From: a virus
Direction: 5' to 3' (one strand)
Virus record (IMG/VR): IMGVR_UViG_3300046007_008434
Location: 1-42,202 of that record
DNA length: 42,202 nucleotides
Positions 195 to 18,463 of this stretch are shown piece by piece. Below the pieces are notes generated by a model. It saw only the letters and a program-made list of their open reading frames with translations, had not been told where the DNA came from and did not search any database. Made by a program: the position numbers and the translations under genes. The first letter of the stretch is position 1, and each line of letters starts with the position of its first letter.

Positions 195-2096
195 ATGCCC
201 GACGATCAGACCATAGTCGAAGGCGATGCCGGATTCCTCGGCATGGCCTCCCGCCTCAACCCGCTGCAACTCCAGCCGGGCATGGTGCAGTATTGCGAAA
301 ACATGCGCCTCGACCGAGGCGTGGCGCAGACGCGCAAAGGCGCGAAGCGGCTGGGTGATGGCATATCGGCAGGCACGCAGCCTCTCACTCTTCCATTTGT
401 GCTGGATGCCAATGCCCGCGTGCGCACGATCTACTCGGGCGGCATCTTCGCCTCGGGCGTTTTCTCCTCGCCGAACTACGACGATGAAAATGAATACATC
501 GTTCTCTGCGGGCCGACCTCGGCGTTTCTCTACCGGCAGGATGAGCCTATTGAGGAGATCAACTATCCCGCCACTGGGACAGCGGCCGACGAGATCATCG
601 AGCCAACGGACAGCGTTTCGACGATCCAAGCGTTCAACCGCTTCTACCTCTTGCGCGAGGCTGACATGACGCTCCCAGCGTGGGATTGGAAATACACCAC
701 CGCCAGCGGCATCGCAGTCTCTGGCACTACGGCCACCGTCCACATCACCGCCCATGGCCTCGCCGCCGGGCAGCGGGTGCGGATAGAGGAGGGGAGCCAA
801 GCGGCATTCCAAGGGCATGAGTATGACATCCTCACCGCTACGGCCAATGCCTTCACCATCGCCGTGCCCGCTGGCACATTGCCGGATGTCGCCGCCGACA
901 TCGCAATCCGCCGCGTCAAAGCCCCGCTGTGGTGGGATGGCTCGACGATGGACTTTCAACGCGCCGCCTCGGGCGTGCCTGCCGCAGGCGTGACCTTCAA
1001 GACCCTGCGCTCTGTGGGGTGGGCGGCTTACATCAATAACCGCCTGTGGATCCCCGATGGCCGCGACACCGTGGCCATCTCGGATGTTCTCGACCCCGAC
1101 CTCTACGACCCTTTTTTCCAATCCTTCCGCGCCAACCAAGGCTCGAACGACTACCTGGTGGCGATTCACCCATGGGTGGAGGGGCAGGCCCTCGTCTTCA
1201 TGCGGAACAGCATCTGGCTCGCCAATCTCTCCGACACCAGCAACGCGACGGGCGACACCTTCACGGTGGACAGCGCCGTCTCCCGCCTAACTCTTCTCAC
1301 CGACGAGATCGGCTGTGTCGCGCGGCGCTCGATCCAAACAGCTGGGCAATTTGTCTTTTTCCTCTCGGACGCCGGAGTTTACCGCCTCGACACCCAGCTC
1401 GACCTCAAGCTCCGAGCCAACACCCAGCCGCTCTCGGACCCCATCGCCGACCAGATCGACGAAATCAACAGCGACTACGCGCACCTCGCCGTAGGCCGTT
1501 GGTGGAACAACCGCTACTACCTCGCCGTGCCCATCGGCGAGAATGTCACAAGCAACAACACCCTTTTCTTGTGGAACGCGCTCAACTCGCAATGGGAAAG
1601 CCGCGACACCTACGCGATCAATCTCGACGAGCTTCTGGTCGCCGCCTACTCCAGCCAACGCCGCCTCTTTGCAGCAAGCCGCGCCGGAACGCTCTTCCTG
1701 CTCGATGAGCTGGACTACGGCGACGAAGTGCCCTACGCCAACGCGCAAGAGCTCTACACCGAAATCCCCTCCGAACTCATTACCCGCCGCTACGGATGGG
1801 GGAGCCTCAATACCAAGCGCCTCACCCGAGCCAAAGCCAGCGTGCTCCTGCCAGACGCCTCCGCCTGCACGCTGGATGCCGTGACGACCGACTACGACGC
1901 GGACTTCCAAGTCGCCGCCCTGGAGAACACCACCGGCGACGAGGAGGACTACACGCTCAAAGCCCCCCTGCGCTGCAAAGCCACCGGCCTCGACCTCCGT
2001 TTCCGCACGCAAAGCGGCCGACCCATCCTCCGCCAGATCAGCGCCGAAGCCACCCGCTCCGCCCTCGACCCCACCGAAACCCGCACCCTCAACTAA
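195..2096 (+). CDS. Tail nozzle / tail tubular protein B-like virion protein
   Basis: A 633-residue virion protein that fits the short-tail nozzle class (T7 gp12-like propeller proteins) by length, by its opening (GDAGFLGMASRLNPLQLQPG, as in proteins of this class that begin by listing 'clean' positions) and by repeated Trp/Tyr-rich strands such as YINNRLWIPDG, HPWVEGQALVF and VGRWWNNRYYLAV. Residues about 168-240 form an inserted Ig-like module (SGTTATVHITAHGLAAGQ), of a kind also seen in the fibre at 37724. It starts at an ATG touching the stop of the preceding gene and is followed after 2 bases by the S74 fibre gene. The tail role is inferred from architecture and neighbours, not from a database match. 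Confidence 0.75.
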   Translation: MPDDQTIVEGDAGFLGMASRLNPLQLQPGMVQYCENMRLDRGVAQTRKGAKRLGDGISAGTQPLTLPFVLDANARVRTIYSGGIFASGVFSSPNYDDENEYIVLCGPTSAFLYRQDEPIEEINYPATGTAADEIIEPTDSVSTIQAFNRFYLLREADMTLPAWDWKYTTASGIAVSGTTATVHITAHGLAAGQRVRIEEGSQAAFQGHEYDILTATANAFTIAVPAGTLPDVAADIAIRRVKAPLWWDGSTMDFQRAASGVPAAGVTFKTLRSVGWAAYINNRLWIPDGRDTVAISDVLDPDLYDPFFQSFRANQGSNDYLVAIHPWVEGQALVFMRNSIWLANLSDTSNATGDTFTVDSAVSRLTLLTDEIGCVARRSIQTAGQFVFFLSDAGVYRLDTQLDLKLRANTQPLSDPIADQIDEINSDYAHLAVGRWWNNRYYLAVPIGENVTSNNTLFLWNALNSQWESRDTYAINLDELLVAAYSSQRRLFAASRAGTLFLLDELDYGDEVPYANAQELYTEIPSELITRRYGWGSLNTKRLTRAKASVLLPDASACTLDAVTTDYDADFQVAALENTTGDEEDYTLKAPLRCKATGLDLRFRTQSGRPILRQISAEATRSALDPTETRTLN

Positions 2097-2098
2097 CC

Positions 2099-3127
2099 AT
2101 GGCAACTCTCACTAAAGGCAAAACATTCGTAAACGGCGAACTCGTCACCCCTGCCAACCTCCACCAGATGGTCGATGCCGCCACCGTCGCCAACATCGTC
2201 AACGCCGACATCGCCTCAAATGCCGCCATCGCCGACACGAAGCTCGCCACCATATCAACGGCCAACAAAGTCGCCCAATCTGCGGTTGCAAACCTCACGA
2301 CCGACCTGGCTGGGAAAGCTGCTTCCTCGCACACGCACACGATTGCCAATGTGACCGGCCTGCAAACAGCGCTCGATGGTAAGCAAGCGTCTGGAAGCTA
2401 TGCTCCTGCAACAGGCATCGCGCCAAGTGCCATCACTGGAACGGCCGTCATCACGACCGACTCCCGCCTCTCGGATGCGAGGACTCCGACCACGCATACG
2501 CACGACGACCGCTATTACACAGAGTCCGAGATGAATACTCTGTTGGCAGGCAAGCAAGCGTCTGGCTCTTATGCCGCTGCCACGCATACGCATTCCGCCG
2601 ACGCCATTACCAGCGGGACTCTTGCAAACGCCCGCACCACCGCCACGAGCAGTAATTTACCCAATACTATTGTAGCTCGTAATAATTTTGGCGCCATACA
2701 TATAGGTCTTATAACAGGTTTTTCGCCTGGGTCTAATAGTGGAATATACAATATAAATACATCGGAATTTGAATACATCGGCGGAATTTTAACCAACAGC
2801 ACTAACACTGGCGTCATTTATAGCACTGGCTCCGACCACCGGCTCAAAACCGACCTCGAAAAACTAACCGGCGCATTGGATCGTTTGTCGGCCTTGCCGG
2901 TCCACCGGTTCAAGTGGGTTGGCCATCCTACCGCACCGAAAGTCGATGGCTTCCTAGCCCACGAAGCCCAAGCCGTTGTGCCCGAAGCCGTCACCGGCAC
3001 CAAGGACGCCGTGGATGCAGACGGCAAACCCATCCATCAAGGCATCGACCAAAGCAAGCTCGTCCCGCTACTCGTCGCCGCCGTCCAAGAACTCGCCGCC
3101 CGCGTCGCTGCCCTCGAAGCCAAATGA
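2099..3127 (+). CDS. Tail fibre/spike with C-terminal S74 intramolecular chaperone
   Basis: A 342-residue fibre. Residues 1-190 are Ala/Thr-rich with two copies of a GKQASGSYA-type repeat and several HTH/THTH motifs typical of trimeric fibre shafts. The C-terminal third, from SDHRLKTDLEKL through GFLAHEAQAVVPEAV to IDQSKLVPLLVAAVQEL, matches the peptidase S74 / endosialidase chaperone domain, which trimerises the fibre and in characterised members cleaves itself off at the conserved Ser. Bases about 2650-2820, just before that domain, are much more AT-rich than the flanks and encode the likely receptor-binding tip, which looks recently exchanged. The ATG at 2099 follows the nozzle stop by 2 bases; the stop overlaps the SET gene start (ATGA). 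Confidence 0.88.
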   Translation: MATLTKGKTFVNGELVTPANLHQMVDAATVANIVNADIASNAAIADTKLATISTANKVAQSAVANLTTDLAGKAASSHTHTIANVTGLQTALDGKQASGSYAPATGIAPSAITGTAVITTDSRLSDARTPTTHTHDDRYYTESEMNTLLAGKQASGSYAAATHTHSADAITSGTLANARTTATSSNLPNTIVARNNFGAIHIGLITGFSPGSNSGIYNINTSEFEYIGGILTNSTNTGVIYSTGSDHRLKTDLEKLTGALDRLSALPVHRFKWVGHPTAPKVDGFLAHEAQAVVPEAVTGTKDAVDADGKPIHQGIDQSKLVPLLVAAVQELAARVAALEAK

Positions 3128-3522
3128 CCCCCGCCCCCACCATGCTCCGCCCCGAGCCCTACCACGCGACCAAGCTCGCCGTGCGCCGCTCCCCGTTGCA
3201 CCGGTGGGGAGTATTCGCCACCGCCCCCATCGCCAAGCACGAAGTGCTCGAGGAGGCCCCCTACGCCTGCGTGCCCAAGAAGCAACTCGCCAAAGCCCCG
3301 GCCTGTGAGACCTACAGCTACTATCTCGACGACGCCACCAGCATCATCGGCTTCGGCCTCGCTCCCCTCTACAACCACCACGACACCCCCAATGCCTGCC
3401 ATGAGATCGACCAGGTAAACGAACTCATGCGGCACTACGCCCTGCGCGACATCGCCGCAGGCGAAGAGATCACCCTCAACTACGGCGCAGAAAACGCCAA
3501 GCACTTCTTAGAAAAGGACTAA
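3124..3522 (+). CDS. SET-domain protein (putative protein lysine methyltransferase)
   Basis: A 132-residue protein that is almost entirely a SET domain. It shows the N-terminal strand motif RWGVFAT (residues 27-33), the SAM-binding and pseudoknot motif YNHHDTPNA (83-91) and the catalytic C-terminal GEEITLNYG (113-121), including the conserved Tyr120. SET proteins transfer methyl groups from S-adenosylmethionine to lysine side chains. There is no cysteine-rich post-SET segment, so the C-terminus is minimal. It overlaps the fibre stop by 4 bases and lies 4 bases before the low-complexity virion gene, so it is expressed with virion genes. The target is unknown; a virion protein or a host protein are both possible. 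Confidence 0.85.
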   Translation: MTPAPTMLRPEPYHATKLAVRRSPLHRWGVFATAPIAKHEVLEEAPYACVPKKQLAKAPACETYSYYLDDATSIIGFGLAPLYNHHDTPNACHEIDQVNELMRHYALRDIAAGEEITLNYGAENAKHFLEKD

Positions 3523-3526
3523 TCCT

Positions 3527-6433
3527 ATGGCAATGAACATGAGCAACAGCGGCGGAGGAGGGGGAATGTCCGGCGGAGGTGGTGGCGGTGGCGCGATGAG
3601 CGCTCCCGCGATGAGCGCAGCCATGTCCGACAACAACATGGGCAACAACGCCATGTCCGGCAACAACGCCATGTCAACAGGGTCAACAGGGTCAGCAATG
3701 TCCAACGCCATGTCCGGCGGAGGAATGTCCACCGGCGGCATGGGCATGGGCGGCATGAGCGCCCCGCCAGCCCCACAGCAGCGCAGCCTCTCCGAAGAAA
3801 TGGCCGCCATCTCTGGCTATGCGCAAGCAAACGCCCAGGCGCAAGCCAACACCACCGTGGACACCGCAGGCCGCTTGAGCGACCAAGCCATCGAGAACAC
3901 CGGCGACATTGCGCAACGCCTCCAAGACAGCACCTACACCGCCGCCGCCAACCAAAACATCCGCGACGCCGGAACCTCAGCCGCCCAGCTCGGCCAGAGC
4001 TACAACCAAGTCGGCCAGACTGCCGACCGCGTAGCCGCCTACAACGACCCCGCCCAAGCCCGGCTAAACCAGATGGCCCTCGGCCAGCTCTACCGGCCCG
4101 ACCAACTTTCCTCCCAGAATGTCTCCGCCGATCAGGTGACCGGCTCTCGCGTAGCCAACATAGGCAACACGCAAACCGCCCAAGTCGGACCCGTGGCCGA
4201 TGCTCAAGCAGCCCAAGCCCGAGCTGCTCGCATGGGCCAAGTGCAAAATGTCCAAGGTCCAGCAGGCTATGCTGCCGATCAGGTCCAGGCGCAACGCATC
4301 CTGTCCTCGCAGATGGGCCCAGTTGCCGATGTGCAAGCCGCCCAAGCTGGGCAAGTCAATGATGTCCGCGCCCAGCGTGTCCGCGCCGCCCAAGGCTACG
4401 CCTCGCAAATGGACGCCGTTGATAATGTCCAAGCCGCTACCACCGGCGCAATCGAGCGTGTCGGTGGAACACAAGTCGGAGCGGTGGACCCCATGGAAGC
4501 CGCCCGCGTCCGCCGAGTGCAAGACATCCAAGCGCAGAATGTCCGCGCCAGTGCCGCCGAGCGTGGCCTCATGAATGAAGCCCGTGGCAATGGGCTCCTC
4601 GGCCAACTCGAAGGCCAGGCCAGCAACGACCTCGCCCTCGGACGCTCCCTCTCAGCCGAGCAAAGCCGCGACGCCATCCAATCTTCCCGTGCCGCATCAT
4701 CCGCCCGTGGCCTCGGCCTCGGCCAATCCGCCATGGCCGCCGAGCTTCTCAACCGCGACCGTTTCGCCACCGCCAGGGAAAACGAACGCCGCACCTTTGC
4801 AGGCAATGTCCTCGGCCAAGGCATGGCTCTCCGCACCTCGGCCAACCAAGCCTACGCCCAGCGGCAGGACGCCAACGCAGGGCGCTCCCTCCAAGCCGAC
4901 AGCACAAACCAATCTGTGGCTCAAGCCCGCGCCATGCAAAATGCGCAGTTTGCCCAGCAGGCAAATCTCACCGACAACCAAAACGCCCAGCAGCGCGTCC
5001 TCGCCAACGCCGGTTACGCCCAGCAAGCCGGATTGAGCAACCAAGATTTCAGTTTCCGCGCCAACTCCCAAGACGCTCAATTTTCTCAGCAAGCCAACCT
5101 TGCCAACCAACAGGCCGCCCTTCAACAAGGCCAATACAACGCCAGCAACCAGCAGGCCATGGCATTGGCCAACCTGCAAAACCGCCAGCAGGCAAGCCTC
5201 TCAAACCAAGACGCCTTCCTGCGTGCAGGACTCGCCAATCAATCCTCGGGCCTCCAACTCGGCCTCACCAACGCCCAGCTTCAGCAGCAAGCAGCCTTGG
5301 CTAACCAGCAGACCGCTTACAACACCGGCCAAGCCAACGCCCAGCTTGCCCAGCAAGCCGCCCTTGCCAACCAAAGCACAGGGCTCCAAGCCTCTCAACT
5401 CAACCAAGCCGCCAACGCCCGCGCCGCAGAGTTTCAGCAACAAGGCGGCCTTCAAGCCGCCCTCGCCAATCAGCAAGTTGGATTTCAAACGAACCAATTC
5501 AACGCAGCCAACCGCCAAGCCGCCAACCTCGCCAACGCAGGCTACGCTCAACAGGCAGGTCTCGCCAACCAAGCCACCGCCCTCCAGCTCGGCCAGACCA
5601 ACGCCCAGCTCCGGCAACAAGGCTACCTCACTGATAATTCCAACGCGCAGCAGGCCGCCATGGCCGATGCAGGCTACGCCCAGCAGGCCAACCTCGCCAA
5701 CCAATCGGCCAACCTCAACGCCGCCCAATACAACTCCTCGCAAAACCTCGCCGCGCAGCAGGCGAACCAATCGGCCAACTACAACGCTAACTACGCCAAT
5801 CAAAATTTTCTGCAAGGAGTCGCCAGCCAGAACTTCAACCAATTTTCGGGCCAGCAAAGCATGCTCGGCAGCCTCTACGGCCAGCAAGCAGGCATCGCTC
5901 AAAACCAATACGCCAACAATCTCGGCCTCGCCCAAGCCAATGTCGCCCTCGACCCCTACCAACGCGCCCTCGGATCCAACATCCCCATAGCCAGCCAAGG
6001 CAACGCCGCCTCGATGATCGGCCAGAGCTACGGCAACACCATGACCTACGGTTCCGACCTCTACAACACCAACACGAACATGCAGGCCAGCTTGTATAAC
6101 AGCTACTACAACAACAGGACCGCCCTTAAATCTGCTAATATCCAAGCCGATGCCTCACGCGACGCCGCAGGCATGGGCCTCCATGGAGCAGCCATGGGAG
6201 CCAGCGCCGTCATCGGAGCCGCCGCTGCCGCCTGCTGGGTAGCCCGCGCCGCCTTCGGCACGGCCACTACTCGTTGGGTGGAATACCGCCGCGCCATGCT
6301 CCGCCATGCCAGCGACCGCACGATCCGCCTCTACTGCCAGCACGGCCAATCCATCGCCGCCGCCATCACCACGCCACTTCGCCGCCTCATTGCCCGCCTC
6401 ACGCTCCGCACCCTTCAATGGTCTTGGAACTAA
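3527..6433 (+). CDS. Low-complexity virion/ejection protein with CFI-box-like C-terminus
   Basis: A 968-residue protein built of three zones. Residues 1-95 are almost only Gly, Met, Ser, Ala and Asn, with the dipeptide MS repeated many times. Residues about 100-880 are Ala/Gln/Asn-rich repeats, first of the type VADVQAAQA and GQVNDVRAQ, then many copies of NAQLAQQAALANQ-like units. The last about 65 residues begin ACWVARAAFGT and contain RRAMLRHAS, resembling the CFI-box C-terminal domain found at the ends of many phage and secreted proteins. The position after the fibre and before two other internal-type proteins suggests an ejected virion protein. Its end overlaps the YcaO start by 16 bases. 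It is a candidate substrate of the adjacent modification enzymes, which is inference only. Confidence 0.7.
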   Translation: MAMNMSNSGGGGGMSGGGGGGGAMSAPAMSAAMSDNNMGNNAMSGNNAMSTGSTGSAMSNAMSGGGMSTGGMGMGGMSAPPAPQQRSLSEEMAAISGYAQANAQAQANTTVDTAGRLSDQAIENTGDIAQRLQDSTYTAAANQNIRDAGTSAAQLGQSYNQVGQTADRVAAYNDPAQARLNQMALGQLYRPDQLSSQNVSADQVTGSRVANIGNTQTAQVGPVADAQAAQARAARMGQVQNVQGPAGYAADQVQAQRILSSQMGPVADVQAAQAGQVNDVRAQRVRAAQGYASQMDAVDNVQAATTGAIERVGGTQVGAVDPMEAARVRRVQDIQAQNVRASAAERGLMNEARGNGLLGQLEGQASNDLALGRSLSAEQSRDAIQSSRAASSARGLGLGQSAMAAELLNRDRFATARENERRTFAGNVLGQGMALRTSANQAYAQRQDANAGRSLQADSTNQSVAQARAMQNAQFAQQANLTDNQNAQQRVLANAGYAQQAGLSNQDFSFRANSQDAQFSQQANLANQQAALQQGQYNASNQQAMALANLQNRQQASLSNQDAFLRAGLANQSSGLQLGLTNAQLQQQAALANQQTAYNTGQANAQLAQQAALANQSTGLQASQLNQAANARAAEFQQQGGLQAALANQQVGFQTNQFNAANRQAANLANAGYAQQAGLANQATALQLGQTNAQLRQQGYLTDNSNAQQAAMADAGYAQQANLANQSANLNAAQYNSSQNLAAQQANQSANYNANYANQNFLQGVASQNFNQFSGQQSMLGSLYGQQAGIAQNQYANNLGLAQANVALDPYQRALGSNIPIASQGNAASMIGQSYGNTMTYGSDLYNTNTNMQASLYNSYYNNRTALKSANIQADASRDAAGMGLHGAAMGASAVIGAAAAACWVARAAFGTATTRWVEYRRAMLRHASDRTIRLYCQHGQSIAAAITTPLRRLIARLTLRTLQWSWN

Positions 6434-7593
6434 CAGAAAAAATCCGACTCGAAGGAGCCCACCGCGCCTGCACTCCAGAGCAAACGCTGGAGCGCATGCG
6501 GCCGCATTTCCACGCCGCAGGCATTACCCGCCTCGCCGAGATCACCGGGCTCGACCGCATCGGTATTTGTGTTGCCCAGTGCATCCGGCCAGATGCCATA
6601 GTGCTGGCCGTGGATTCTGGCAAAGGAGCCACCCCCGCCGCAGCAAAATGCTCGGCCATGATGGAAGGCTTTGAGCGCCATGTCGGCGAGACCAGCCGCC
6701 CTCGGCACATCCTCGCCACCGCAGCGCAGCTCGGCGACAAAGCCGAGACACGCCTGCCGCTTTCCAAAGGAGCTGTCTTTCACCCCCACGCCCTCATGCC
6801 ATGGACCGAGGTGCGCGGCCTACAAAGTGGATCCGCCCGCATGGTGCCTACCGACACCGTGCGCCTCATCGCCCGTCCAGACCCCGCCCCGCTTACCAGC
6901 CTGCCATTTGCCTACACCAGCAACGGTCTCTCTTCCGGCAACACCTACGCCGAAGCCGTCGCCGGTGGCCTCTACGAGTGCATCGAACGAGACGCCACAG
7001 CCATCGCCCAGCACAGGCTGCAAGATTTCCCCCGTGTCGATCTCGATACCATCACCGACCCCACCGTAGCCCGCCTCGTCCGCACACTGCGCGACGCCGA
7101 CATCACCCCTGTGCTCCTTGATGTCACCAGCGACATCGGCCTGCCCACCTACATAGCATATCTCATCGACTGCGAGAGCGGCTGCGGAGTCAATAAAGGC
7201 TACGCCGCCCACCTCGATCCAGCCGTGGCCCAAGCCCGCGCTCTCACCGAGACCATCCAAGCCCGCGCCGTATGGATCGCTGGAAGCCGCGACGACTTCC
7301 TCCACGCCCGCTACGAGAAGGTCAAAGCCACCGACTCCTCCGCCATCCTCGCCCGCCTCTACAAGCACGCCACCACCAGCGCAAACGCCCATCCCGACCG
7401 ATCCGGCGACACCTTTGAGGCAGACATAGACACCCTCCTTGATCTCCTCGATGCTGCCGGTATCCCCGAGCCACTCGTCTATGAGTTCACCCACGACTAC
7501 CCATGCAGCGTCGTGCGAATCATAACCCCTACGCTGGAAGGCTACACCTTCGACTACTCGCAACCAGGCCACCGCGCCAGGAGGGTCAAATGA
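6418..7593 (+). CDS. YcaO-domain protein (ATP-dependent amide backbone-modifying enzyme)
   Basis: A 391-residue YcaO family protein of normal length. The family uses ATP to activate a backbone amide by phosphorylation, giving azolines, amidines or thioamides. Characteristic motifs are present in order: CSAMMEGFERH (78-88, the S-xxx-E-xx-ER motif), NTYAEAVAGGLYECIERDA (175-193), GYAAHLDPAVAQARALTETIQAR (261-283) and the C-terminal core strand VVRIITPTLEG (365-375). No truncation or lost key residue is apparent. The ATG at 6418 lies inside the end of the previous gene (16-base overlap) and agrees with the usual N-terminus of the family. TfuA follows with a 4-base ATGA overlap. YcaO with TfuA points to thioamide formation rather than heterocyclisation, because no cyclodehydratase partner or flavin dehydrogenase is present. 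Confidence 0.93.
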   Translation: MVLELTEKIRLEGAHRACTPEQTLERMRPHFHAAGITRLAEITGLDRIGICVAQCIRPDAIVLAVDSGKGATPAAAKCSAMMEGFERHVGETSRPRHILATAAQLGDKAETRLPLSKGAVFHPHALMPWTEVRGLQSGSARMVPTDTVRLIARPDPAPLTSLPFAYTSNGLSSGNTYAEAVAGGLYECIERDATAIAQHRLQDFPRVDLDTITDPTVARLVRTLRDADITPVLLDVTSDIGLPTYIAYLIDCESGCGVNKGYAAHLDPAVAQARALTETIQARAVWIAGSRDDFLHARYEKVKATDSSAILARLYKHATTSANAHPDRSGDTFEADIDTLLDLLDAAGIPEPLVYEFTHDYPCSVVRIITPTLEGYTFDYSQPGHRARRVK

Positions 7594-8606
7594 AAATCTT
7601 CCTCGGCCCCACACGCCCCGCAAATATCCCCGCCGATGCCGACCTCCGCCCCCCGGCCCAGCAAGGCGACATCGCCGCCGCCGCTCTTGAAGGTCCAGAT
7701 ACCATCCTCCTCATCGACGGCCTCTTTCACCAAAGCCTCGCCCCCTGGCACAAGGAAATCCTCTTCGCCATCGAGCAGGGATGCCGCGTCATCGGCGCAG
7801 GCAGCCTCGGCGCACTCCGCGCCGTCGAGTGCGCCCGCTACGGAGCCGAGCCAGTCGGCATCATCGCCGGGTGGTATGCCGACGAATCCTGCACCGACGA
7901 TGCGGATGTAGCCCTCGCTCACGGCCATGCCGAAGACGGCTACCGCGCCCTCTCCATTCCAATCGTCAACCTCCGCGCCACCGCCGAGTGCCTCGTCGCC
8001 GACGGCCTCCTGCCCGCAGCCGATCTCGCAGGCATCCTCACCACAGCCCGCAGCATCTACTATGTCGAGCGCAGTTGGCCCCGCCTACGCCAAGCCCTCG
8101 GCCCCGTGGCAGACCTCCTCCGCGAGAACTACCGCGACCAGAAAGCCCTCGACGCCGAGGAAGCCATCCGCCACGCCCAGCATGTCGCCGCACCCCTCCA
8201 GTGCGACACGCCCCAGCACACGCACAGCGCCTATTTCCTCGCCCTCCTCGCCAACGACCTGCCAATCAGCGACGGCCAACGCCAGCACCATCTCACCAGC
8301 GAAGCCGACCGCACCCTCGCCACCGACCTCCACCTCGTCTCCGAGTTGGCGCAACTCCTCGGCATCGTCACCACGCCCGAAGACATCTTCGCCGCCAGCA
8401 CCCGCATGTGGCATCGCCTCGGCATCACCGACCCCACCGCCGCGCAAGCCTGGCTCTCCGAGCACGCCTGGACCGACCAGCAATGGTATGCCCACGCCCA
8501 GCGGGAAGCACTCCGCCAAGCCGCCCGCGATTGGCACAACGCCAGCGGTGCCTGCCTCGACATCGTTCCACTCACCCTCGCCCACAACCTACTCAACCCA
8601 GCCTAA
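7590..8606 (+). CDS. TfuA-like protein (partner of YcaO in thioamidation)
   Basis: A 338-residue protein whose N-terminal about 130 residues carry the TfuA core signature: KIFLGPTRP at the start, LIDGLFHQSLAPWHKEILFA (about 51-70), then GAGSLGALRAVECARYG and a DDADVALAHG acidic/His segment. In methanogens TfuA works with YcaO to make thioglycine in methyl-CoM reductase, and in bacterial thioamitide clusters it accompanies YcaO; it is thought to help deliver sulfur. A strong ribosome site (CAGGAGG, 7578-7584) precedes the ATG, which overlaps the YcaO stop. The C-terminal two thirds are helical, Ala/His-rich and not recognised. It is followed after 5 bases by a virion-type gene. Confidence 0.92.
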   Translation: MKIFLGPTRPANIPADADLRPPAQQGDIAAAALEGPDTILLIDGLFHQSLAPWHKEILFAIEQGCRVIGAGSLGALRAVECARYGAEPVGIIAGWYADESCTDDADVALAHGHAEDGYRALSIPIVNLRATAECLVADGLLPAADLAGILTTARSIYYVERSWPRLRQALGPVADLLRENYRDQKALDAEEAIRHAQHVAAPLQCDTPQHTHSAYFLALLANDLPISDGQRQHHLTSEADRTLATDLHLVSELAQLLGIVTTPEDIFAASTRMWHRLGITDPTAAQAWLSEHAWTDQQWYAHAQREALRQAARDWHNASGACLDIVPLTLAHNLLNPA

Positions 8607-8611
8607 TACCC

Positions 8612-14844: not shown

Positions 14845-15975
14845 TTACAGCGGCTTCGGGCGGTCCAGCAGGCCGAAGTAGTGAGCCTCCACCACGGCGA
14901 TGCTATCCCGCAGGAGCTTGGCAGCGGTTTCGATCCCATTGCGCTCGACAATGGCAGAGCCAAATTCTTTCCGCAGGTTGTAAGCCCCCTTGCTGCCGTC
15001 GGGAATAAACCGCCGCACAAATTTGTTAATATCGTAATGCGTGAGGTTGTAGGCGTCCGCGTCGCTTGTCCTCGGGATCACAAAATCGCCCTCATCTCCA
15101 AGCGCGGCGCGAATCAATCTCATAAGGCGGGGGTTGAACGGCACGCGCCCGTATTTTTTGTTTTTGGATTTCCAATTTGCCCGCCGCAGCATGGCTATGT
15201 GAACTTGGTTATCTTTGGACTCAACCCAGCTCCACTCCAAAACCTCCACCTCACTGTTACGCAGCCCAGCCTTGCGCATTAGCCAGTAGATGGCCCATAC
15301 GCGCTTATTTTGACGCCGCAGCGGGATCCGCGCCGCCCGATCCATAGCACGCATCACCTCACGGTCCACCGGATCATAAGCCTGGTCTGGAGCAGCAACG
15401 CCCGCGACGCTCCAGAACTCCTCCAGATTTGGCAGCTTGAGATCCTTGAATAGGTAAAATCTTTTGCGGGCCACGATGCTCTTGATCGTCTGAACATCCG
15501 TGTGAATCCCGCTCTCCGAACGCAATTCATCTTCCGCTCCTTTTTTCTTTGTCTTGGTCTTTTTCTGCACCTCAATCCATCCTCGCAGCGCCGCTGCCGT
15601 CAGCACCTGGTGCGTGCTCTGCTCTTCCCAATCCTGCCGCCCCGTCACCTCGCGCACAAAAGCCGCAAACCGGCTCAAACTTTTCGTCGCCGATTTCTCG
15701 GGGCCATGCTCCTTGTAAATCGCCGCCACCTCCCCACACTTTGCATAGCCCGGCCGCTTCACCACCGCCGCAAGCTGGTGCTCATCCTTCGAGCGCAGCG
15801 CCGCCGCCAGCTTCTCAGCCGCCCGCATCGCCTGCTTGCGCCCCGCTTCGCTGTAAGTCGTCACGCCCGTGGAAAACTTCTTGGGCTGGCCATCAATCTG
15901 CACGCGGTAATACCAAGCCGGATGCCGCCCCGCCTCCTCCCGCCAATAAACCGAAACCTCGTTATGCCGTCTCAT
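14845..15975 (-). CDS. int: Tyrosine recombinase / phage integrase
   Basis: A 376-residue integrase that would recombine phage attP with a host tRNA-Arg gene. The N-terminal 60 residues are a compact arm-binding-like domain, 70-200 a core-binding domain, and 205-370 the catalytic domain. Visible catalytic positions are Arg239 (AGLRNSEVEVLEW), Lys in the RRANWKSKNKKYGR hairpin, Arg335 (AYNLRKEF) and the nucleophile Tyr366 (EAHYFG). The usual His of HxxR is Tyr332, and the usual LGH motif is LLRDS, so two His positions differ from the family consensus. The attP core lies about 150 bases upstream of its start, and one arm-like repeat sits 6-14 bases before the ATG, which could let the integrase repress itself. 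Confidence 0.93.
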   Translation of the reverse strand: MRRHNEVSVYWREEAGRHPAWYYRVQIDGQPKKFSTGVTTYSEAGRKQAMRAAEKLAAALRSKDEHQLAAVVKRPGYAKCGEVAAIYKEHGPEKSATKSLSRFAAFVREVTGRQDWEEQSTHQVLTAAALRGWIEVQKKTKTKKKGAEDELRSESGIHTDVQTIKSIVARKRFYLFKDLKLPNLEEFWSVAGVAAPDQAYDPVDREVMRAMDRAARIPLRRQNKRVWAIYWLMRKAGLRNSEVEVLEWSWVESKDNQVHIAMLRRANWKSKNKKYGRVPFNPRLMRLIRAALGDEGDFVIPRTSDADAYNLTHYDINKFVRRFIPDGSKGAYNLRKEFGSAIVERNGIETAAKLLRDSIAVVEAHYFGLLDRPKPL

Positions 15976-17596: not shown

Positions 17597-18463
17597 TTAG
17601 GCGGCTTTCAGTTTCTTCATTTCCTCAGCCAAGGCCCACAGGGCGCGGTTGATGTTGGTGTTTTGGTCGATGCCTCCGACTTCGCGGGTGCGGCGGCGGG
17701 CTACGAGGCGGCCGTTTTCGTTGCGTTGGTTGTAACGCAGGCCGCCACGGATAAGGTTTTCCTGCACGGCGTTGAGGGTGTTCCACATGGTAGGGGCTGC
17801 GTCCTCATGTCGGCGGAGGGTCAAGACCTGATCGGCGGTGACGGGTGCGGGCTTGTCGGCGTCGTCGTATTTGGCGACCAGGGCGGCGCGGGCGAATGCT
17901 TGGCGCTCGCCTTCGGTGAGCCGGAGGGCGGCCATCTCGTTGACGCTCTCGGAGACCTCGGGGAGCCGGTCGAGGATGCTGATGCAACCTTCGATGACTT
18001 GGCCCTCGATGTTTCCTTTGTGGGGGATGCGGATGTCGTCGATGAGGTTTTGAGCTACTACCATGCCGTTGCCGCAGATGAGGCGGAAAACTCCGGCCAT
18101 GAGGCGGTATGAGGAGGTGCCGTCATGGGAGTTGAGTAGGACGATCTCGTTATGCGTGCCGCCGACCTGGAGGGGCTGGCTGTCGTGGCGGAGGCGCAAA
18201 AGGTGCTTTGTGAAGCCGCGTTTTTCTTCTTCTCTGCTGCCTCCCTGCATGACGGCGTAAGGGCGGAAGCCTTCACGGGCAAGGCCGGTGAGGATTTCGC
18301 TCGTTGGGATGTATTTGTAAGCTGCTGACCGGCTGTTGTGGGCCTGCTCGGCGAACACCGAAGGGGCGATCTGGCGGAGTTGGTCGAATGGGATGGAGCC
18401 GTTGCGGCTGGTGTAGTTCACTGCGCCGTTGCTGCGGGTGCGGGCAAATCGTGTGATTGTCAT
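17597..18463 (-). CDS. DUF932 family protein
   Basis: A 288-residue protein with the DUF932 pattern: HNSRSAAYKYIPTSEIL near residue 42, QVGGTHNEIVLLNSHDGTSSYRLMAG in the middle (about 98-123) and FRLICGNGMVV directly after it. The family is widespread on phages and plasmids; its function is not established. The C-terminal part (LWALAEEMKKLKAA) is helical. It lies in the minus-strand lysogeny operon, with a membrane peptide gene 15 bases upstream. Unlike several neighbours, it has no clear hairpin in its leader. Confidence 0.82.
   Translation of the reverse strand: MTITRFARTRSNGAVNYTSRNGSIPFDQLRQIAPSVFAEQAHNSRSAAYKYIPTSEILTGLAREGFRPYAVMQGGSREEEKRGFTKHLLRLRHDSQPLQVGGTHNEIVLLNSHDGTSSYRLMAGVFRLICGNGMVVAQNLIDDIRIPHKGNIEGQVIEGCISILDRLPEVSESVNEMAALRLTEGERQAFARAALVAKYDDADKPAPVTADQVLTLRRHEDAAPTMWNTLNAVQENLIRGGLRYNQRNENGRLVARRRTREVGGIDQNTNINRALWALAEEMKKLKAA

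Follow-up and report, generated by a model that had tools for sequence, protein, structure and literature searches.

The PBCV-1 protein vSET, a minimal SET enzyme, is packaged in virions and acts on the host, and so sets a precedent (PMC7019647). Partners of lysine-modifying enzymes can have lysine deserts (PMC10169902), which suggests, by analogy, a reason why the partner of such an enzyme might shed its lysines. Gp7.3 of phage T7 resides in the tail channel, with its positively charged, disordered N-terminus around the DNA, and is ejected (PMC11784390). What, then, is known of SET proteins in bacterial phages? A literature search for SET domain and phage returned no study of phage SET function, and none that names a target or partner of such a protein. 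Among named phage records, SET proteins of the kind described here are a rarity (2 of 50,697 at 1e-5), in agreement with a first-pass annotation that had considered them uncommon in bacterial phages.

Here we analyse one such gene and its surroundings in the window, the whole stretch of 42,202 nucleotides of viral DNA under study. Fifty-three IMG/VR loci encode a relative of this SET, nearly all of them 91–100% identical, and the more remote SETs share no common gene context. Cultured relatives of SET, of YcaO or of the tailed protein of locus L100 were not found in the phage collection. Bacterial relatives of SET were only remote ones (28–35% identity), and we therefore make no host assignment. 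Relatives of the window were gathered with three seeds, namely SET, YcaO and the head-closure-like gene. Many of these contigs are fragments, and groups that had 1 kb of exact sequence in common were merged; the groups that carry SET (SET+) were partly found through SET itself as the query.

A complete SET domain in a virion gene block

The SET reading frame opens with an ATG at 3124 that overlaps the TGA of the fibre gene (3125–3127), closes with a stop codon at 3520–3522 and is separated by four bases from the next ATG at 3527 (Table 1). Its product begins with MTPAPTMLRPEPYHATKLAVRRSPLHRWGVFA and carries the motifs RWGVFA, NHHDTPN and GEEITLNYG. The match to PF00856 (E 2.1e-13; 51 bits, cut-off 22.4) covers profile positions 2–105 of 105, and the domain is complete and minimal, as first annotated. 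Sequence comparison with the PDB identifies PBCV-1 vSET as the nearest solved structure (3e-13). An AlphaFold2 model (pLDDT 87), when submitted to Foldseek, likewise matches vSET best (3kma, TM-score 0.88 by target length), followed by Set7 of Schizosaccharomyces pombe (5h6z). By profile and by model, the SET fold is present over the full domain.

Across 23 diverse relatives, residues S23, H26, W28–A32, Y64, Y83–H85, E115, Y120 and G121 are invariant. In the alignment with vSET, W28, N84–H85, Y64 and Y120 take the positions of Y16, the NH motif, Tyr50 and Tyr105, respectively. Both the NH motif and the catalytic tyrosine (GEExxxxYG) are present, with N84, H85 and Y120 unvarying, and no SAM-binding or catalytic residue is lost in the alignment of these 23 relatives. 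Since its catalytic residues are invariant, SET is unlike an abandoned enzyme. Reading on from the vSET alignment, the position of Tyr109 falls on N124, a non-aromatic residue; this position is aromatic in the SET subfamily of T4-like phages. The median dN/dS of SET is about 0.11 among 43 sequences, compared with 0.12 for the head-closure-like neighbour, 0.24 for YcaO and 0.39 for TfuA, and the gene is under purifying selection. Motifs, fold and conservation suggest that SET is a complete, conserved methyltransferase, and probably an active enzyme, within the virion gene block.

Might SET shield virion lysines against a host conjugation defence, or serve as a non-catalytic assembly factor for tail and fibre? 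The setting among tail genes would suit either role, and methylation is reported to shield bacterial surface proteins in Rickettsia. A PADLOC search gave no defence signal, so that a defence-related role of SET found no match, and the invariance of the catalytic residues also speaks against this explanation, which we consider unlikely.

The first-pass annotation had coupled SET to the S74 fibre gene. The two genes do overlap in the window, but only 25 of 47 SET+ groups end upstream in S74, and its absence there in 21 of the 47 rules out S74 as an obligatory partner of SET. The fibre N-terminus TKGK (K6 and K8; window 2099–2122) is invariant in 46 of 46 SET+ groups and also occurs in 17 of 41 groups that lack SET (SET−), so that KGK as a possible lysine target of SET is confounded by lineage. 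On the other side, SET had been placed four bases before a low-complexity virion gene: the spacing holds, but simple sequence of the Met/Gly/Ser type is found mainly at the N-terminus of the product. Pfam and PHROG searches with this protein gave no match. Its C-terminal domain, CWVARAAFG...RTIRLYCQHG with Cys903 and Cys937, is matchless in the phage collection.

Table 1. Features of the window, with coordinates in the 42,202-nucleotide stretch
Feature	Coordinates	Strand	Evidence
Head-closure (Hc3)-like or virion structural protein	195..2096	+	phrog_3287, phrog_578; 28% to Phage C75C1 head closure Hc3
Tail fibre gene ending in Peptidase_S74 (PF13884) intramolecular chaperone	2099..3127	+	Pfam 4.9e-10; tail-fibre PHROGs
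Minimal SET-domain protein-lysine methyltransferase (activity predicted), 132 aa	3124..3522	+	Pfam, PDB, AF2/Foldseek, alignment
DNA coding for Met/Gly/Ser-rich, lysine-free N-terminal tail (residues 1–78) of the next virion protein; other half of the proposed module	3527..3760	+	33/33 SET+ vs 0/42 SET− groups; L206 junction
Ala/Gln/Asn-rich putative virion/ejection protein, 968 aa, one lysine, carries the tail	3527..6433	+	
YcaO (PF02624), McrA-thioamidation-like, accessory, outside the SET module	6418..7593	+	PF02624 6e-66; TIGR03266 2.7e-58, below curated cut-off
TfuA (PF07812), accessory, outside the SET module	7590..8606	+	PF07812 1.2e-33; NF033432 3e-37, below cut-off
Weak integrase-like gene, downstream of the virion block	14845..15975	−	phrog_1, 1e-8
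Gene of an uncharacterised family, downstream of the virion block	17597..18463	−	phrog_12094, 2e-84

SET and YcaO-TfuA are shuffled independently

Do SET, YcaO and TfuA constitute a single three-enzyme protein-modification cassette, as the first-pass annotation proposed? The three genes do lie within about 5.5 kb of virion genes, with 5.48 kb measured from the start of SET to the end of TfuA. We used the head-closure-like protein as a neutral backbone marker for the relatives and built a gain/loss tree of 73 rows on it. YcaO occurs without SET in 32 rows and SET without YcaO in 24, which makes 56 relatives with only one of the two; eight rows have neither, and only nine have both (9 of 41 YcaO rows and 9 of 33 SET rows). 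Independent contrasts revealed no association, with an average of 0.8 pairs changing in the same direction and 0.7 in opposite directions. SET was gained or lost at least nine times on this tree, and loci L127 and L129 lack SET and have a YcaO that is 99% identical. Across the 73 relatives SET and YcaO-TfuA come and go independently of each other, and the cassette is refuted as a conserved unit; the close spacing in the window and the nine relatives with SET and YcaO leave it a credence close to nil.

The place of YcaO-TfuA is an exchangeable slot with several alternative occupants; in the window it extends from the end of the virion gene that starts at 3527 to the gene at 8609 (between 6433 and 8609). 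In many relatives this slot is taken by a PAPS-reductase-like PP-loop protein (e.g. L018 11046–12140); in others it contains a shorter stretch or is empty. The virion protein encoded before the slot has a C-terminus that varies with the occupant. A motif [Y/F]C[Q/R/K/H]xG near this C-terminus is found in 41 of 41 rows with YcaO and in 0 of 32 without it. Cys903 and Cys937 of the window protein correspond to 6233–6337, and the motif site was also noted for L169–L171, L006, L044 and L048; relatives that lack YcaO and keep the CWxAR domain have Met at that Cys position. The C-terminal domain is a candidate substrate of YcaO-TfuA, with gene overlap and linkage as the alternative.

The window encodes both YcaO and TfuA, as do thioamidation systems, some of which have a ThiS-type carrier. 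In 13 of 40 groups, including L033 (11984–12250) and L142 (5408–5674), YcaO and TfuA flank a ThiS-family protein with Gly-Gly at its end; PF02597 identified it in the two loci examined with that profile, and the 13 groups were counted by a corresponding Gly-Gly reading frame. No ThiS counterpart was found in the window. This arrangement of ThiS between YcaO and TfuA fits a phage-encoded path of sulfur delivery for thioamidation.

SET and a Met/Gly/Ser-rich tail are gained and lost together

If YcaO-TfuA is not the partner of SET, which gene is? In 33 of 33 SET+ groups, the downstream virion protein opens with a long Met/Gly/Ser/Asn-rich tail, MAMNMSNSGGGGGMSGGG..., which is nearly always lysine-free. 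This tail is present in 0 of 42 SET− groups (Fisher p 5e-22, uncorrected for relatedness), where the downstream protein opens either with MGKKKKSKQEAPPPPQQRDL... right after the fibre gene or with MGGSSAxKPKEQKAPPQAQPIDY..., the latter often after an unrelated gene of about 126 aa. These SET− N-termini contain lysine, often as MGKKKKSK. On the tree of the head-closure-like neighbour, tail and SET each change at least nine times and their states never disagree, and the supported independent contrasts agree in four of four cases. The DNA pattern of the tail start, searched blind to SET, was found in 30 contigs, 29 of which have SET directly upstream; the 30th ends before that side. When L206, which lacks SET, is compared with L002, which has it, similarity breaks off after the fibre gene and restarts at APPxPQQR (APPAPQQR in the window). 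SET and tail are gained and lost as one unit, independent of YcaO-TfuA.

Many relatives without SET have in its place, directly before the virion gene, a protein of about 126 aa that is unrelated to SET (MLPWERARNWH...; L130 2813–3193, similar in L132, L134, L136, L140, L155, L203 and L219). It has no Pfam or PHROG match above cut-off.

Our reading, which we hold tentatively and with somewhat less than even confidence, is that SET, of the vSET/Set7 type, and the tail form a mobile two-part module, in which an active methyltransferase and a lysine-free docking tail would act at a late stage on a different protein of virion or host; catalysis, docking, packaging and target are what we infer. Within the window family SET and tail are adjacent, so physical linkage alone would give such concordance. 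The main rival explanation is co-inheritance by adjacency only, with an active SET aimed at an unrelated host protein and a tail that has a separate role in the virion. The four-base spacing is in line with it, as is the host target of vSET, a host histone; we regard it as possible, if doubtful.

The pairing recurs in unrelated backbones

Independent tests of the pairing are provided by two backbones outside the window family, and SET-less relatives were compared in the T7-like one only; that just two further backbones are independent counts against the two-part module. In L102 and L103, which have a T7-like connector (phrog_449), a SET of 48–54% identity is followed by proteins of the MGMGMS/MGGMGG type, MPMGGMGGMGGMGG... 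and MGKKKGMGKMGMGMGMSMG..., encoded before the connector. Scans with two connectors yielded 135 non-redundant proteins encoded upstream. The two SET+ loci rank first and second among them in Met content (27.5% and 9.2%; median 2.2%) and have 27 and 10 Met-Gly/Ser dipeptides, compared with at most four in the remainder; the chance that both top ranks of 135 fall to these two loci is 1.1e-4. Judged by eye, comparison of L102 with L299 and of L103 with L251 shows the tails grafted on proteins whose SET-less counterparts open lysine-rich. In the second backbone (L100, which has a phrog_38 terminase, L445 and L489), SET is followed by a MSMGNMGGNSGAMSS.../MGGMGGGG... protein. The SET-tail pairing recurs in three unrelated phage backbones, that of the window family and these two. 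The same type of tail, only where SET is present, in two unrelated backbones with unrelated downstream proteins argues against co-inheritance by adjacency only.

The rule that a tail is present if and only if SET is present fails in a T4-like backbone (L101, L107, L433 and L457), where SET lies between an S74 domain and phrog_358 and the tail is absent. These T4-like SET genes without a tail speak for co-inheritance by adjacency and against the two-part module. So, against the latter, does the tail of L103, which contains lysines (KKKGMGK); absence of lysine from the tail is usual, not universal. Same-subfamily SETs precede a phrog_358-type structural gene in the T4-like phages L101, L107, L433, L456 and L457, directly after an S74 domain of 86–89 aa where that side is resolved.

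Lysine depletion and a possible role of the tail

The window protein that carries the tail has a single lysine in 968 residues. Median lysine content of the downstream protein is 0–0.36% in SET+ and 1.9–2.4% in SET− relatives, and no such gap is seen in seven control proteins (fibre, head-closure-like, YcaO, TfuA, PP-loop and two further virion proteins). In the subset with a PP-loop protein in the slot, SET+ and SET− relatives differ in lysine only within the first ~85 aligned columns, N-terminal and beside SET. The depletion therefore belongs to the tail and its immediate vicinity, and avoidance of lysine by the whole protein is weakened as a simple story. Confinement to the 5' end of the downstream gene also favours co-inheritance by adjacency over the two-part module, since the difference may ride on a linked allele.

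Could the tailed virion protein be the substrate of SET, methylated at a lysine or at a different group, for instance its N-terminus or a histidine? Adjacency and strict pairing would agree with this, as would the lysines in the partners of L102, L103 and L100. In twelve SET+ loci, however, the partner is without a single lysine and lysine methylation is excluded there, so that the tailed protein cannot be a general lysine substrate of SET. We know of no SET enzymes that act on N-termini, and we deem self-targeting of this kind improbable.

How could the two-part module operate? The Met/Gly/Ser-rich, normally lysine-free extension would sit on whichever virion protein is encoded immediately downstream of SET. 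Most likely, this disordered extension would provide the docking partner for SET on a virion or ejection protein, and docking would hold the methyltransferase at the assembling particle, perhaps inside. From there SET would methylate lysines elsewhere, in a different virion protein or in a protein of the host, and the tailed protein would be spared because it has almost no lysine. The non-aromatic N124 at the position of vSET Tyr109 counts against this reading. In its most specific form, a previously undescribed mobile phage module would combine a lysine methyltransferase with a lysine-free Met/Gly/Ser tail grafted on a virion or ejection protein. The tail, itself exempt for want of lysines, would keep the enzyme on or within the particle, and the enzyme would be delivered or positioned to act on virion or host proteins; this we rate as conceivable but rather unlikely.

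The comparative data single out a specific partner of SET, the Met/Gly/Ser tail, and exclusion of the tailed protein as a general lysine substrate leaves fewer candidates for the target. The strict swap between SET with a lysine-free tail and lysine-bearing N-termini offers a testable idea, lysine methylation in DNA ejection or host takeover, and the pairing points to an unstudied way in which phages may modify proteins during assembly or infection. If true, bacterial viruses would have a counterpart of PBCV-1 vSET, a protein methyltransferase tethered to the virion. The same dataset also points to a protein on which phage-borne YcaO-TfuA-ThiS thioamidation may act.

Comparison with known systems

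Among YcaO-TfuA-ThiS systems of peptide thioamidation, the window YcaO-TfuA resembles the McrA-thioamidation pair. It differs in that the window pair, which is not linked to SET, has as candidate substrate the C-terminal domain of the downstream virion protein.

T7 gene 7.3 presumably lies just upstream of the connector. The tailed proteins of L102 and L103 are encoded in this same place, and in their SET-less counterparts the N-terminus is often rich in lysine. PHROG and Pfam gave no match that identifies gp7.3, and the tailed proteins are likened to it by position; they are much longer, and Met/Gly/Ser repeats have largely taken the place of the lysine-rich N-terminus. By analogy, the positively charged N-terminus of gp7.3 would be the sort of N-terminus that the tail replaces.

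SET proteins of uncultured Caudovirales phages in BFVD (e.g. A0A6J5L8Y2) have the same fold and likewise belong to tailed phages, but are only about 25% identical to the window SET and have no function or context described there. S. pombe Set7, the second-best structural match, is a minimal SET protein like that of the window; unlike the latter it is a eukaryotic histone methyltransferase, with about 25% identity. PBCV-1 vSET (A612L), a virion-packaged histone H3K27 methyltransferase, resembles the window SET in size, fold, motifs and in being encoded by a DNA virus. Unlike vSET, the window protein has Asn at the Tyr109 position, no histone substrate is expected for it, and it comes from a bacterial-type tailed phage, in whose virion block it is encoded beside a tailed protein.
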